DNA of 64,000 bases from Gammaproteobacteria bacterium (GCA_020445405.1 JAGRGQ010000002.1:124001-188000); one strand, 5' to 3'; positions 58,866 to 64,000 are shown, counted from the first letter of the stretch. Numbers and translations: made by a program. The notes: generated by a model from the letters alone, not told the origin.

Positions 58866-59667
58866 AACGGGGCGGTTCGTGGTTTGATTATCGAAAACGG
58901 TTTCGAAGGTCCGTTGAAATTCGTTAACGCTGTTGCGAAGTTCACTGAAGAATAACCGGTAAGTGTTAACTATTTCTAGTGTTTCGTCTAAATCGATTGG
59001 AATCGGCGTTGTCGTGCCCAGAGTATTGACGGTGCCGGGGTTGGCTTACCGTGATGTGTTGATGAGCGTTATCGACACGATTCTGAGCCCGACCGACTCC
59101 AGCGCAGTTCGAGGAGGGGAAATTTTACTGACCTTCGGTTTACCTGGAAAACGGTTTGCAGGAATCAGGGAGTGGTTCTGCGACATCGCTTTGTGGCAGG
59201 AGAGGTGAAATTGGTTTTCCGAAATACTCCCATGCGGTCGGTACGCGCGCTGTTGGAACGCACGCGCGCGATTCTTCCCGGGACAGTATGCCGTCCCCGA
59301 CCCGGATCTCGATTGACGGTTATCCATTTGGCGCGGCCGGAACAGACACGGCATGCCGGGCGCAGGATTTTACCGGAATTTGCGGATAGCCGAGTTTCAC
59401 CTGGTGAGAAAGAAGGCGCAGCCGAAAGGGAGATATTCAGCGCATTGTGGGTAGGTAACGCTTCAGGACGTGGTAGCGACCGACCGGATCCAGCCTGATA
59501 CAGGGTGTCTACGGCATATTGAACAGTGGTGTTGTGGTGTCATTTCCCGATCTGTTGTTTTCGGCATTTCTACAGGGCGAACAGGCAAGGGGCATCGTGG
59601 CCCAAATGGTTGATTGGTTCACAACTTACGCCGGATTGACGACCGGCGTATATCGGAGAGTCTACAC
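58866..59667. other. Non-coding upstream region of rpfF
   Basis: About 800 bases between divergent ybaK and rpfF. Open frames on both strands at 59046-59498 overlap and look spurious. The stretch includes GCGCGC-rich near-palindromes around 59245-59270. It probably holds the rpfF promoter, but no -35/-10 pair is clear. Confidence 0.45.
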
Positions 59668-60558
59668 ATGAGCATTAACATTGAAGAGACAAGAAACATT
59701 CGTTTCAATCATATCAATCTGGTATTCGAACCGGAGTATCAGATGGTCTGGGCGCGGCTTCGGTATCCGGGACGTCCCTGTATGAGTGAGGAACTGCTGC
59801 GGGATGTGGCCAGGGCACAGCAGATTGTGGCGGAGAAGGCCACTGGCGAGTATCAGCAGGATCACGCTTCCAGGTTGCAGTATCAGGTGCTCGGCTCCGA
59901 CCTCAAAGGCGTGTTCAGTCTCGGCGGCGACCTGGCTCGATTCATCGCTCTGATTGATCAGAAAAACAGGGTGGCATTGAGGCAATATGCCAAGGCATGC
60001 ATCGATGTGCTGTACCGATCGGCAACCAGCTACGGTTTGCCTTTCACGACCATCTCCCTGGTCCAGGGTGAAGCATTGGGCGGCGGATTCGAGGCGGCGC
60101 TTTCAGCCAATGTTGTGATCGCTGAAAAGCAGGCGAGATTCGGTTTTCCGGAGACGGTTTTCGGGCTGTTTCCAGGCATGGGCGCATTCAGTTTTCTGGC
60201 CAGACGCCTGAATCCCGGCTTGGCCAAGCGTCTGATTGCCAGCGGCAGGGTTTACTCCGCGGAGGAGCTTTATGAAATGGGCGTGGTGGACGTGCTGGTT
60301 CCCGACGGCAAGGGTGAGGAGTCGGTTTACGAATACATCCAACACCAACGCTGTCGCTATTCGGGATTTTCCGGCCTGGACAAGGTCGTCGAACAGTATA
60401 ACCCGCTCACTTACGCTGAACTGGAAAACGTGATTGATCTCTGGGTGGATACCACCCTGCGGCTATCGAAAAAGAACATCAGATTGATGCAGTATCTGGT
60501 GCAGGCACAGGAGAAACGCTGGGTCAACAACGTTCCGCTCAAAACCATGGTCGGATAG
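59668..60558 (+). CDS. rpfF: DSF-type fatty-acid signal synthase (RpfF-like crotonase)
   Basis: RpfF makes cis-2-unsaturated fatty acid quorum signals (DSF family) from acyl-ACP by dehydration and thioester cleavage. The 296-residue crotonase-fold protein has SRLQYQVLGSDLKGVFSLGG and both catalytic Glu of the family: E142 in GGGFEAAL and E162 in FPETVFG, with GLFPGMGAFSF after. The ATG at 59668 has GGAGAG at 8 bases. It converges on an RpfC-like sensor kinase, the same arrangement as in Xanthomonas. The type of signal made is unknown. Confidence 0.92.
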   Translation: MSINIEETRNIRFNHINLVFEPEYQMVWARLRYPGRPCMSEELLRDVARAQQIVAEKATGEYQQDHASRLQYQVLGSDLKGVFSLGGDLARFIALIDQKNRVALRQYAKACIDVLYRSATSYGLPFTTISLVQGEALGGGFEAALSANVVIAEKQARFGFPETVFGLFPGMGAFSFLARRLNPGLAKRLIASGRVYSAEELYEMGVVDVLVPDGKGEESVYEYIQHQRCRYSGFSGLDKVVEQYNPLTYAELENVIDLWVDTTLRLSKKNIRLMQYLVQAQEKRWVNNVPLKTMVG

Positions 60559-60674
60559 GTTTATCCACCGGTGCAACAGGATGCCAGGGAAGGCTTACCG
60601 GACGACGACCGGTCGCCGGCCCGGCGTCGGAGCCCGCGGGTAAATTGCGAGCGGGAGATGGCTGAAATATGCGC

Positions 60675-63206
60675 TCAATGCACCGCCGGTTTGGGATAAT
60701 CCAGTAACTCCGACAGCGTCGATCTGGCCCGCTCCATACCGGCACCCACCAGTTTAGTATGCTGTGTTGCTGTAGCGGTGAATCTGGCTGCCGTTATTTT
60801 TTCCGATTCTGCGGCGAGCGAAGAGAGTTCCAGTAGACCGAGATTCAGACTGGAACCTTTGAGAGCGTGCGCCAGTGCGCGATATCTGGTGATATCTCCA
60901 CTGTCCGCAGCTACCTTCATCCCGATCAGTATCTGCCTGCTGTCCCTGGTAAAATTGTCAAATAAGCGGTAGAGGAACTCATCACTGGGCGCAAGATCCT
61001 TGACCTGAGTAAAAATGGTCTGATCCACAATCGCGGGATTGCGCTTTTCCGCTTCAATTGCGTTCGCGGTGCCTGCAGCAGTCGTTTCGGTCTCGTAATG
61101 CGCAGCGGTCAGGTGTTCGCTTGCCTGCGCAATGGTTTCCAGCAGTTTGTGCGAAGAGACCGGCTTGGTCAGAAAATATTTGATGCCTGCCTCATGGCAC
61201 TCCTGACGGGCATTGACCGTGGCATTGGCGGTCAGCATTATAAATGGGATGGGGTTGTCGTCGCTGGCGTGCGCGAACCGGTACATACGGAAAGTATCGA
61301 CGCCGCCCAGTTCGGGCATCTGCATGTCCACAATGACCAGATCGTAGTGCTGGGATTCGAGCGCGTCCAGCACCTGCAGGCCATTCTCGACAAGATCGTG
61401 CTGATGACCGGCGTGTTCCAGAATTCTTCCCGTTACGATACGGTTGACGCTATTATCCTCGGCAACCAGGATTTTGAGCGGTCGTTGGACGCTGCGGTTC
61501 TTTGTAAAGTGTTCGGAAAGACTGATAACGCCACTTTCCCGGTGATTGGATACGCTGGATGCATGCAGGGCGTTGAACAGAAGCGCTTTGTCGAACGGTC
61601 TTGTGAGGGTGTAAACCGTATTGCCGATCTCCCCCAGATCGCTGATCTGAATGCTGTTTTCCTCAGACTGTACGATCAATATCGTGATACCGGGCAGCGC
61701 CAGATCGTGGCTCAGGGAGAGTAGAAAACTGCGTGTTTCATGGCTGAACGGCACATCATCGAGAATGATCACTTCATAGGTGGAACTTTCGCTGGTGCTG
61801 CTGATCAACAGGCGCAACGCTTCCCTTGTATTGGCGACATCGTTAAAGGGTACACCCCAGCCTTTCAGTGTATGCGAGATATCGGTAGTTGCGCCGGGTT
61901 GACTGCAGAGGCGCATTACGCGGCACTCCTGCAGTTGCTGGAGTTCTTCCTCTTTTACCAGCTGGTCCTGGTGCTGAAACTCGATATCGAACCAGAAAGT
62001 CGAACCGATATCCGGTGTACTCTGCAATCTGATTCGCCCCCCCATGAGCTCCACCAGTTGTCGGGCGATAGCGGTGCCGAGACCTGTCCCTCCAAACCTT
62101 CTGGTTGTACTCTCGTCCGCCTGGGAAAAATTTTCAAATATTCTCGCCTGAGCCTCTGCGCTGATGCCGATACCGGTATCCACAATCTCAAAACGGACAA
62201 GCGAGCGCTGCTCACCCGCCCGGATTGTGTGACAGCGCAGTTCCACCGAGCCCTTGTCGGTAAATTTAATCGCATTTCCAATCAGGTTGATCAGCACCTG
62301 CCGCAGATGGTGAGGGTCGCCTCTCAACCAGTAGTGCGTTTCCAGTCCGATATGGGAACTCAGATGGAGATTTTTGGACTCGGCTTCCGACGAGAGCATG
62401 CGCAGGGTGGAGTTGATCAGGCTATGCAGATCGAAATCGGTGTGCTCAATCTCGAGCTTTCCCGCTTCGATTTTGGAGATGTCCAGTATATCCTCGATCA
62501 GCTTGAGCAAAGTCTGACCGGAAGCATATATGATGTCCGCGTACTCGCGCTCCTCGGTATTCAGTCTGCATGTTTTCAACAGGTCGCCGGTGCCGATGAT
62601 TCCATTGAGCGGCGTCCGGATCTCATGACTCATGCGAGCCAGAAACTCGCTTTTCGCCTTGTTCGCGGCAATCGCTTTCAGCTTCTCTTTATTGAGACGC
62701 CCGAACAGTGTGTAGGTAAACAGGGATATCCCGATAATGGTAAACAGTGTTCCGATAGCCAATGCAAGATGATCTTGCCAGAAGTCGTTGAAACTGGTGG
62801 TTATCCAGAATCCGGTGGCGGCTAAAAACGTGGCCAGCAGAAGGTATGCTTTTCCAAAACGTCCGCCATTGCCCACAACAATCCAAATATAGACGCCGAC
62901 CCAGGCCGCGCCGATCTCCCCGGTAAACGCGAGTACATATGAAATGGCAGTCACATCGGCAACAATGCCGGTTACTCTCCGGGTTATGGATTTGGTCGGT
63001 TTGAAATAGAATGAGACAAGAACGAGAAAACTATATAAAAAGAAGATCCATATCAGTTCTCTGTTTATTTGAGGAAGTACCGAAACAGATCTGTGAAAAT
63101 CCGAAAAAAACAGATAGGAAAGAAACACGCCATGGAAAACCGGGCGCAGCAATGCCTGCTCGAATTCAGCGCGTTCAAGCTGCAGTTTTCTGAAGCTGGC
63201 TAACAT
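60675..63206 (-). CDS. rpfC: RpfC-like hybrid sensor histidine kinase (DSF sensor)
   Basis: The 843-residue inner-membrane protein starts with about five membrane helices (about 22-170), then a HisKA domain with SHEIRTPLNG (H194), a HATPase_c domain (DTGIGI, then GGTGLGTAIA), a degenerate receiver-like segment (about 430-570), a full receiver (LKILVAEDNSVNR, phospho-Asp in VIVDMQMP), and a C-terminal HPt domain (ALAHALKGSSLN). This matches RpfC, which senses DSF with its N-terminal membrane part and also restrains RpfF. The extra degenerate receiver is longer than expected. No RpfG (HD-GYP) gene is in the window. Confidence 0.92.
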   Translation of the reverse strand: MLASFRKLQLERAEFEQALLRPVFHGVFLSYLFFSDFHRSVSVLPQINRELIWIFFLYSFLVLVSFYFKPTKSITRRVTGIVADVTAISYVLAFTGEIGAAWVGVYIWIVVGNGGRFGKAYLLLATFLAATGFWITTSFNDFWQDHLALAIGTLFTIIGISLFTYTLFGRLNKEKLKAIAANKAKSEFLARMSHEIRTPLNGIIGTGDLLKTCRLNTEEREYADIIYASGQTLLKLIEDILDISKIEAGKLEIEHTDFDLHSLINSTLRMLSSEAESKNLHLSSHIGLETHYWLRGDPHHLRQVLINLIGNAIKFTDKGSVELRCHTIRAGEQRSLVRFEIVDTGIGISAEAQARIFENFSQADESTTRRFGGTGLGTAIARQLVELMGGRIRLQSTPDIGSTFWFDIEFQHQDQLVKEEELQQLQECRVMRLCSQPGATTDISHTLKGWGVPFNDVANTREALRLLISSTSESSTYEVIILDDVPFSHETRSFLLSLSHDLALPGITILIVQSEENSIQISDLGEIGNTVYTLTRPFDKALLFNALHASSVSNHRESGVISLSEHFTKNRSVQRPLKILVAEDNSVNRIVTGRILEHAGHQHDLVENGLQVLDALESQHYDLVIVDMQMPELGGVDTFRMYRFAHASDDNPIPFIMLTANATVNARQECHEAGIKYFLTKPVSSHKLLETIAQASEHLTAAHYETETTAAGTANAIEAEKRNPAIVDQTIFTQVKDLAPSDEFLYRLFDNFTRDSRQILIGMKVAADSGDITRYRALAHALKGSSLNLGLLELSSLAAESEKITAARFTATATQHTKLVGAGMERARSTLSELLDYPKPAVH

Positions 63207-63260: not shown

Positions 63261-64000
63261 TCAAGCCGTTCTGCAAAAGCGGTATTGCCCATTTCCGTAC
63301 GCAAGACCATTTTCGGGCCAAAACATCGCCTTACAAAGTACAAAATAGTTGTTCCAGTGACGGACGCTCTCCAGGTCTATCTTATCCGGATAGATTTGAT
63401 GCAGGTTATTCCAGAAGTTTGCGTGCCATCCATCCAGTGTTTTCCAGTAGTTCATACCGTTGATGAACCAAGCGTCTTTAAGTATGAATCCTTTGGGGTT
63501 GTATTGTAAGGCGCTGAATGGCAAAACCTTGCCTCCAGGAAAATACTTCCCAATCAACGTCTTATCCGGATCCAGAAACTGCGGAATAAGGTCGCGGGAG
63601 ACAATCAAATGATGAAACATGCTACCGTTTTCAGCGAGTAGTTCGTTTATAATTTCAAACAATAGCCCGATGTTATTGATTTGTTCCAGCAAACCGACGG
63701 AAAAAACCAGTTGGTATTTCTTCCTGCCCCAGCGGTCAGGGCTGCTCGCGTCGACATTGCCGAAGAAAAGCCTGAACCGCTCTGACGAAAGAATGTCGCT
63801 GGGATCTTTTGTGCGATTGAGTATGAAATCGTATTGTTCTTTACTTTGCGTGGTCGCTGAAATACGCAAATTTTTGTAGGTATCGAGCAGAAAGGACTCA
63901 AAGTACCCGAATCCGCAACCGATATTCAGCAGCTGCTCGTCACCGGTCAACTGCATTCTTTGGGCAATTAAGTTAAACTTTCTGGCTTGGGCCTCTGCAA
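63261..64000 (-). CDS. Cyclopropane-fatty-acyl synthase-like SAM methyltransferase (partial, N-terminus outside window)
   Basis: The frame is open to the right edge with no stop, so the N-terminus lies outside; 246 codons are visible. An AEAQARKFNLIAQRM lead is followed by the SAM motif LLNIGCGFGYFESFLLD, the order seen in cyclopropane-fatty-acyl-phospholipid synthases. The rest (VFSVGLLEQINNIGLLFEI, then FMHHL-like MFHHLIVSRDLI, and YFPGGKVLPFSAL) also fits that family. It would be modified from a membrane lipid double bond, and it lies 54 bases upstream of rpfC on the same strand. Confidence 0.82.
   Translation of the reverse strand, partial: AEAQARKFNLIAQRMQLTGDEQLLNIGCGFGYFESFLLDTYKNLRISATTQSKEQYDFILNRTKDPSDILSSERFRLFFGNVDASSPDRWGRKKYQLVFSVGLLEQINNIGLLFEIINELLAENGSMFHHLIVSRDLIPQFLDPDKTLIGKYFPGGKVLPFSALQYNPKGFILKDAWFINGMNYWKTLDGWHANFWNNLHQIYPDKIDLESVRHWNNYFVLCKAMFWPENGLAYGNGQYRFCRTA

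Follow-up and report, generated by a model that had tools for sequence, protein, structure and literature searches.

A gammaproteobacterial rpf locus with a putative acyl-supply and tailoring module for a diffusible signal factor-type signal

The known signals of the diffusible signal factor (DSF) family are simple or 11-methyl cis-2-enoic acids that are drawn from housekeeping fatty-acid synthesis. In Xanthomonas campestris pv. campestris (Xcc), RpfF converts 3-hydroxyacyl-acyl carrier protein (ACP) to cis-2-enoyl-ACP and then cleaves it (PMC5941067), and DSF sensing by the sensor kinase RpfC requires residues R15, D17, S18, E19 and Q22 (PMC5391125). Clusters of rpf genes were listed for Methylophaga, Leptospirillum, Thiobacillus and Methylobacillus in a 2015 review (PMC4504480), and the Leptospirillum system has been studied experimentally (PMC8357829). 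In rhizobia, Nod factors depend on nodEF for acyl chains with alpha,beta-unsaturation (PMC9048898); RpfF likewise yields 2-unsaturated chains. The rpf locus described here begins near the end of a 64,000-nucleotide stretch (the window) from a draft genome of a Gammaproteobacteria bacterium (GCA_020445405.1, JAGRGQ010000002.1:124001-188000). The window corresponds to C222:124001-188000, C222 being one of the 322 contigs of the draft, and a further 4.6 kb of this contig was read beyond the window end. Judged from its gene content, the locus probably encodes a DSF-type cell-cell signalling system that supplies and tailors its own acyl chains and produces a modified fatty-acid signal with a 2-unsaturated chain.

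The locus shares with the rpfF/rpfGHC cluster of Xanthomonas the catalytic glutamate pair of RpfF, the domain order of RpfC, the convergence of rpfF and rpfC and an rpfG of the HD-GYP type. Xanthomonas also has an extra gene resembling the RpfC input region, rpfH (PMC4504480), whereas the second RpfC-like protein found here carries receiver (REC) and histidine phosphotransfer (Hpt) regions. Unlike in Xanthomonas, no rpfB acyl-CoA ligase gene adjoins rpfF (a genome-wide search for rpfB was not made), genes for an ACP, a NodE-like ketoacyl-ACP synthase (KAS) and a CMAS-like or radical S-adenosylmethionine (SAM) enzyme lie inside the locus, and the sensing motif of the window RpfC is altered. As in Leptospirillum and other non-xanthomonad clusters, a complete rpfF-rpfC-rpfG set occurs outside Xanthomonadales, and L. 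ferriphilum has a separate Hpt protein too (PMC8357829). In Leptospirillum all the genes point the same way in a single run, unlike the convergent layout here, and ACP and fabF genes go unmentioned in the text of that study (PMC8357829).

The rpfF gene (59668..60558, plus strand) encodes a 296-aa enoyl-ACP hydratase/thioesterase of the DSF-synthase family, identified by profile and PDB matches and by clade membership. Its ATG at 59668 has a ribosome-binding-like motif, GGAGAG, directly upstream. In phmmer searches of the PDB, the best matches were 7zq7 (E=1e-53) and Xanthomonas RpfF 3m6m (E=3e-51). Entries 6dgn and 5fus (RpfF/putative enoyl-CoA hydratase) matched at about 1e-45; solved RpfF structures as a whole range from 1e-53 to 6e-45, and other crotonases reached about 1e-14 at best. 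Alignment to 3m6m equates E142 (codon 60091..60093, plus strand) and E162 (codon 60151..60153, plus strand) with the catalytic residues E141 and E161 of Xcc. Both glutamates, as well as the oxyanion-hole glycines G138 and G139, are invariant across 18 RpfF orthologues, and the pocket residues are conserved in the orthologue alignment. The protein also passes the broader NCBIfam model NF006452 (325.9 bits, cut-off 177). It is an RpfF-family protein with both catalytic glutamates intact.

A gap of 116 bp (60559..60674) separates rpfF from the convergent rpfC (60675..63206, minus strand), which encodes an 843-aa membrane hybrid sensor kinase with a transmembrane input region followed by HisKA, HATPase_c, REC and Hpt domains, each above its Pfam cut-off. 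H194, the N and G boxes, D627, T659 and K681 of REC and H780 of Hpt are invariant in 12 orthologues. Moreover, the REC domain matches chain D of 3m6m, the RpfC REC that was crystallised with RpfF (E=6e-26). This is a complete RpfC-type hybrid kinase. An earlier sequence-only reading of the window had claimed the RpfF glutamate pair, the full RpfC architecture and a Xanthomonas-like convergent layout, all of which hold. The rpfG gene, which it proposed to seek in the genome, is present as a 3' end running into the contig end (C222:192360-192566, minus strand); the search matched 64 aa of it (53% identity), and direct translation gives about 68 C-terminal aa. In relatives rpfG is complete, and the full-length protein shows REC plus the HDIGK and HHERFDGHGYP motifs. 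The layout is thus of the Xanthomonas type, with rpfF convergent with rpfC and rpfG in the same locus.

The remaining genes of the locus lie between rpfC and rpfG. Upstream of rpfC, at a distance of 54 bp and in the same orientation, lies the gene of a 362-aa CMAS/Cfa-like SAM methyltransferase (C222:187261-188349, minus strand; its 3' part occupies window positions 63261..64000). Beyond the window follow the ACP gene (C222:188747-188992, plus strand), which overlaps the gene of the NodE-like KAS (C222:188989-190200, plus strand), and that of a 638-aa RpfC-like protein, RpfC2 (C222:190416-192332, minus strand). The latter has transmembrane segments, a REC domain and an Hpt-like region but no kinase domain. 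Its REC aspartate is lost, with a serine instead, and its Hpt histidine is retained, as in 8 of 10 homologues. The sequence-only reading missed this unusual module because the ACP, KAS and CMAS-like genes lie beyond the window.

Relatives with no more than 48-69% RpfF identity also carry the module. Their usual gene order is rpfF convergent with rpfC, then ACP and KAS in the direction of rpfF, then the CMAS-like gene, RpfC2 and rpfG in the direction of rpfC. The complete locus is found in S. selenatireducens DSM 17993 (L059) and in genomes G001, G002, G005 and G051. G037, G413 and G136 carry the module without RpfC2, rpfG being flipped in G136, and further loci are interrupted by contig ends. 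The module is found in Sedimenticola and in relatives that together represent at least three gammaproteobacterial families, G136 and G413 belonging to two other families. It has co-evolved with one RpfF clade. In a tree of 130 RpfF sequences, in which loci were scored as KAS-positive or KAS-negative, a single clade of 19 members (100% support in the SH-like approximate likelihood ratio test, SH-aLRT) takes in every one of the 16 KAS-positive loci, none of the remaining 111 RpfFs is KAS-positive, and the KAS label changes 4 times on the tree vs 15 in shuffles. The window RpfF belongs to this module-bearing clade, which is the outcome of the rpfF gene tree that the sequence-only reading had called for. 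Among the three KAS-negative members of the clade, L064 is cut by a contig edge ahead of the point where the gene would be expected, L055 shows an ACP adjoining rpfF, and L046 is truly without the module.

Two loci show an ACP beside rpfF in the absence of an adjacent KAS. In L055:6526-10842 (G071), rpfG, an RpfC2-like gene, rpfF and an ACP gene form one run, with no KAS alongside and no RpfC seen nearby. In G305 (L259:4170-5810), whose more distant RpfF is only 40% identical, the ACP is placed divergently beside rpfF and the KAS is found elsewhere in the genome. On gene order, L055 and L259 suggest that an ACP-RpfF partnership may be broader than the KAS module.

The KAS of the module is an accessory enzyme with all its catalytic residues, the Cys and both His being intact in 17 of 17 rpf KAS sequences. 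The window KAS is 57-68% identical to those of other rpf loci and 47-51% to NodE/HsnB, vs 41% to the FabF of its own genome. In a tree of 51 KAS sequences, the rpf enzymes cluster with NodE and other accessory KAS to the exclusion of FabF (support 100/99), which rules out a simple duplicate of FabF. They form a clade of their own (17 rows plus L184, support 99/95), and NodE forms a separate clade (100/100) outside which they fall. As for the NodF/NodE (HsnA/HsnB) pair of rhizobial symbiosis plasmids, which is dedicated to the acyl chain of a signal, ACP and KAS are adjacent here. The NodE matches used adjoin annotated nod genes on such plasmids, and no nod genes were found at the rpf locus. 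The ACP keeps its phosphopantetheine serine and is distinct from the AcpP of the genome, which adjoins the housekeeping FabF elsewhere (C292). It was rejected as a NodF orthologue, since it resembles AcpP at least as closely as NodF.

The CMAS-like protein resembles Cfa and the mycolic acid methyltransferases (PF02353) in its fold and SAM site. Its structure model (pLDDT 86, pTM 0.86) matches Cfa enzymes and plant N-methyltransferases in Foldseek with E values of about 1e-15 to 1e-17 (7qos, 5z9o, 6bqc). The Cfa bicarbonate site has five residues, taken here as the Cys, Glu, His, Ile and Tyr of Cfa/CmaA1; the last four (E222, H247, I249 and Y301) are fully or almost fully conserved in the family. 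Unlike in Cfa, the N-terminal lipid-binding region is not recognised, the active-site Cys is replaced and scores fall far under the Cfa equivalog cut-offs. Scores above 130 bits for this family are confined to genomes that hold rpf-module genes, all other genomes giving 73 bits or less. The housekeeping Cfa was rejected as its identity because no Cfa-like protein of a relative exceeds 73 bits in comparison with it. In G055, the usual CMAS slot holds a radical-SAM protein instead (L044:4077-5588, the same as L060), with HpnJ, PhpK and ladderane-type B12 radical-SAM proteins as best NCBIfam matches.

From these genes we infer a scheme that covers the supply of RpfF by the ACP, the modification and identity of the signal, every catalytic step on real substrates and the output. 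The NodE-like KAS would extend an acyl chain on the dedicated ACP, and the Cfa/CMAS-like SAM enzyme, or the radical-SAM enzyme in one relative, would add a methyl or methylene to the chain. Acting on the 3-hydroxyacyl-ACP so formed, RpfF would remove water to give a cis-2-enoyl chain and release this as a free modified fatty-acid signal, unlike the Nod system with its lipochitooligosaccharide product. RpfC would sense this signal at the membrane and relay phosphate via REC and Hpt to RpfG, and the kinase-less RpfC2 might serve as an additional Hpt or anchor partner. RpfG, as a cyclic di-GMP (c-di-GMP) phosphodiesterase of the HD-GYP type, would lower c-di-GMP, and attachment, dispersal or other behaviour under c-di-GMP control would follow cell density. 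A wider reading is held more tentatively, at somewhat under even chances: a family of rpf loci may have diversified its fatty-acid signals, the NodE-type KAS and ACP building the chain and a swappable CMAS-like or radical-SAM C-alkylation giving each lineage a private branched or cyclopropanated 2-unsaturated signal, with the RpfC motif shifted along.

Several observations weigh against a dedicated, modified signal. The window RpfF fails the narrow NCBIfam RpfF equivalog NF053515 (212.7 bits, cut-off 550). Three of the five DSF-sensing residues of the window RpfC are changed (L10, R12, A13, E14 and Q17 for R, D, S, E and Q; residues 10-17, 63156..63179, minus strand), only E and Q being kept; the Xcc positions were placed by way of its N-terminal sequence. 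The altered motif weakens, and argues against, the assumption that Xanthomonas DSF is the ligand, without naming another. That the module goes cleanly with loss of the motif was rejected because the picture is mixed: RxDSExxQ or a sequence near it is kept in many aligned RpfCs, S. selenatireducens among them. In all 12 CMAS-like sequences the Cfa active-site Cys is replaced by Met, Thr or Ile, so that the product may be either a cyclopropane or a methyl. The window CMAS is only 37-44% identical to those of other loci and is placed upstream of rpfC, unlike them; the tailoring gene has likely been relocated or replaced in the window genome. Since rpfC and other genes intervene between rpfF and the ACP and KAS, co-expression can only be presumed. 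Finally, G035 (L046) has rpfF, rpfC, RpfC2 and rpfG without ACP, KAS or CMAS, and G040 has ACP, KAS and CMAS without RpfF, so the link between the module and rpf is not obligatory.

The same observations bear on what else the locus could be. As the main alternative, it might hold an ordinary DSF system in which RpfF uses housekeeping 3-hydroxyacyl-AcpP, while the ACP, KAS and CMAS make or modify a lipid of the membrane or surface that has no part in the signal and is only controlled by rpf or encoded nearby. G035 and G040 keep this explanation alive, as do the origin of Xcc DSF precursors in the general fatty-acid pathway (PMC5941067) and the related KAS/ACP pairs that accompany desaturase/acyltransferase or type III polyketide synthase (PKS) genes. 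It is nevertheless rather unlikely, though not negligibly so, given that the module is strictly confined to a single RpfF clade in three families, its insertion between rpfC and rpfG, genes that adjoin each other in other loci, the repeated independent ACP-rpfF adjacency in L055 and L259 and the restriction of the CMAS subfamily to genomes with rpf-module genes.

It is improbable that there is no signal locus at all, with RpfF of this clade acting in a specialised-lipid pathway, as its thioesterase/hydratase, and RpfC/RpfG sensing another cue such as redox or membrane state. The missed equivalog cut-off would fit this possibility, and so would the off-consensus sensing motif of the window RpfC, which is also altered in two relatives of the same genus. 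On the contrary, the canonical RxDSExxQ is kept in S. selenatireducens and several relatives carrying the same module, and the RpfF-binding-type REC, the RpfF pocket residues and the convergence of rpfF and rpfC are all conserved. As to a chance neighbourhood or an assembly artefact, the draft consists of 322 contigs, and this one stops shortly beyond RpfC2. The same arrangement recurs, however, in closed or near-closed genomes (G136 and G037 in one contig each, G005 in two) and in the isolate DSM 17993, which refutes both for practical purposes.

The sequence-only reading had drawn attention to an rpf/DSF pair outside Xanthomonadales and called DSF signalling in an organism of this kind little described; the novelty of such a pair was rejected. 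An RpfF homologue is present in 68 of 369 sampled gammaproteobacterial genomes. In a survey of gene order across 80 named loci, rpfF and rpfC converge on most contigs of sufficient length, and rpfG usually accompanies them. These loci come from Nitrospirae as well as from alpha-, beta-, gamma-, zeta- and deltaproteobacteria, and clusters outside xanthomonads were already in the 2015 review (PMC4504480). What looks new is the ACP/NodE-like KAS/CMAS module within an rpf locus. A search of open-licence PMC papers returned nothing relevant that joins rpfF or DSF with cyclopropane, nodE/nodF, a ketosynthase or biosynthetic cluster, or Sedimenticola. The organism had also been described as nitrite-reducing and probably sulfur-oxidising; sulfur oxidation is borne out by SoxB above its cut-off, and nitrite reduction was not confirmed (Cu-NirK below cut-off, NirS not tested).

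If a dedicated, modified signal is indeed made, some bacteria would build dedicated and perhaps species-private fatty-acid signals. DSF biosynthesis would then be linked to the type of enzyme that gives rhizobial Nod factors their acyl chains; on the wider reading, one enzyme type would serve marine sulfur bacteria and rhizobia alike in building the acyl chains of their signals. This model is testable in culture because a named isolate, S. selenatireducens DSM 17993, has the full locus.

Around the window locus, a promoter scan gave no more matches than in shuffles, and 12 terminator-like sites were observed vs 6.2 expected. Between YbaK and rpfF (58866-59667) lie about 800 bp without a convincing gene; in relatives such as G001, G005 and G055, a HrpB-type helicase gene is found near rpfF at the place of this gap. 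Among other rpf loci, a betaproteobacterial metagenome-assembled genome has a FabF-like KAS between rpfF and rpfC (L113:11101-12366, minus strand). It is 32-35% identical, sits on a long branch outside the rpf-KAS clade and is possibly an independent recruitment of a KAS into an rpf locus. Several alphaproteobacterial loci (L067, L070, L079, L080, L086, L105 and others) have in the rpfG position a protein of 660-780 aa that matches RpfG only partly, which suggests extra domains. The rpf locus of L074, a contig labelled Mycobacterium sp. KBS0706, encodes an RpfF nested with that of Inquilinus limosus, and this genome is probably mislabelled.

Accessory ketosynthases were also met in two further clusters. 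On a Xanthomonas sacchari plasmid (NZ_CP010410, L251:6638-12454), a NodE-like KAS stands with an ACP, a GNAT protein, an arginase-family protein, a class III aminotransferase and a HAD phosphatase, in what looks like an uncharacterised cluster of acyl-amine type. In a gammaproteobacterial draft genome (G084, L190:1702-6423), a type III PKS/KASIII-like enzyme, a FAD monooxygenase-like protein, an ACP and an accessory KAS are encoded in one run.

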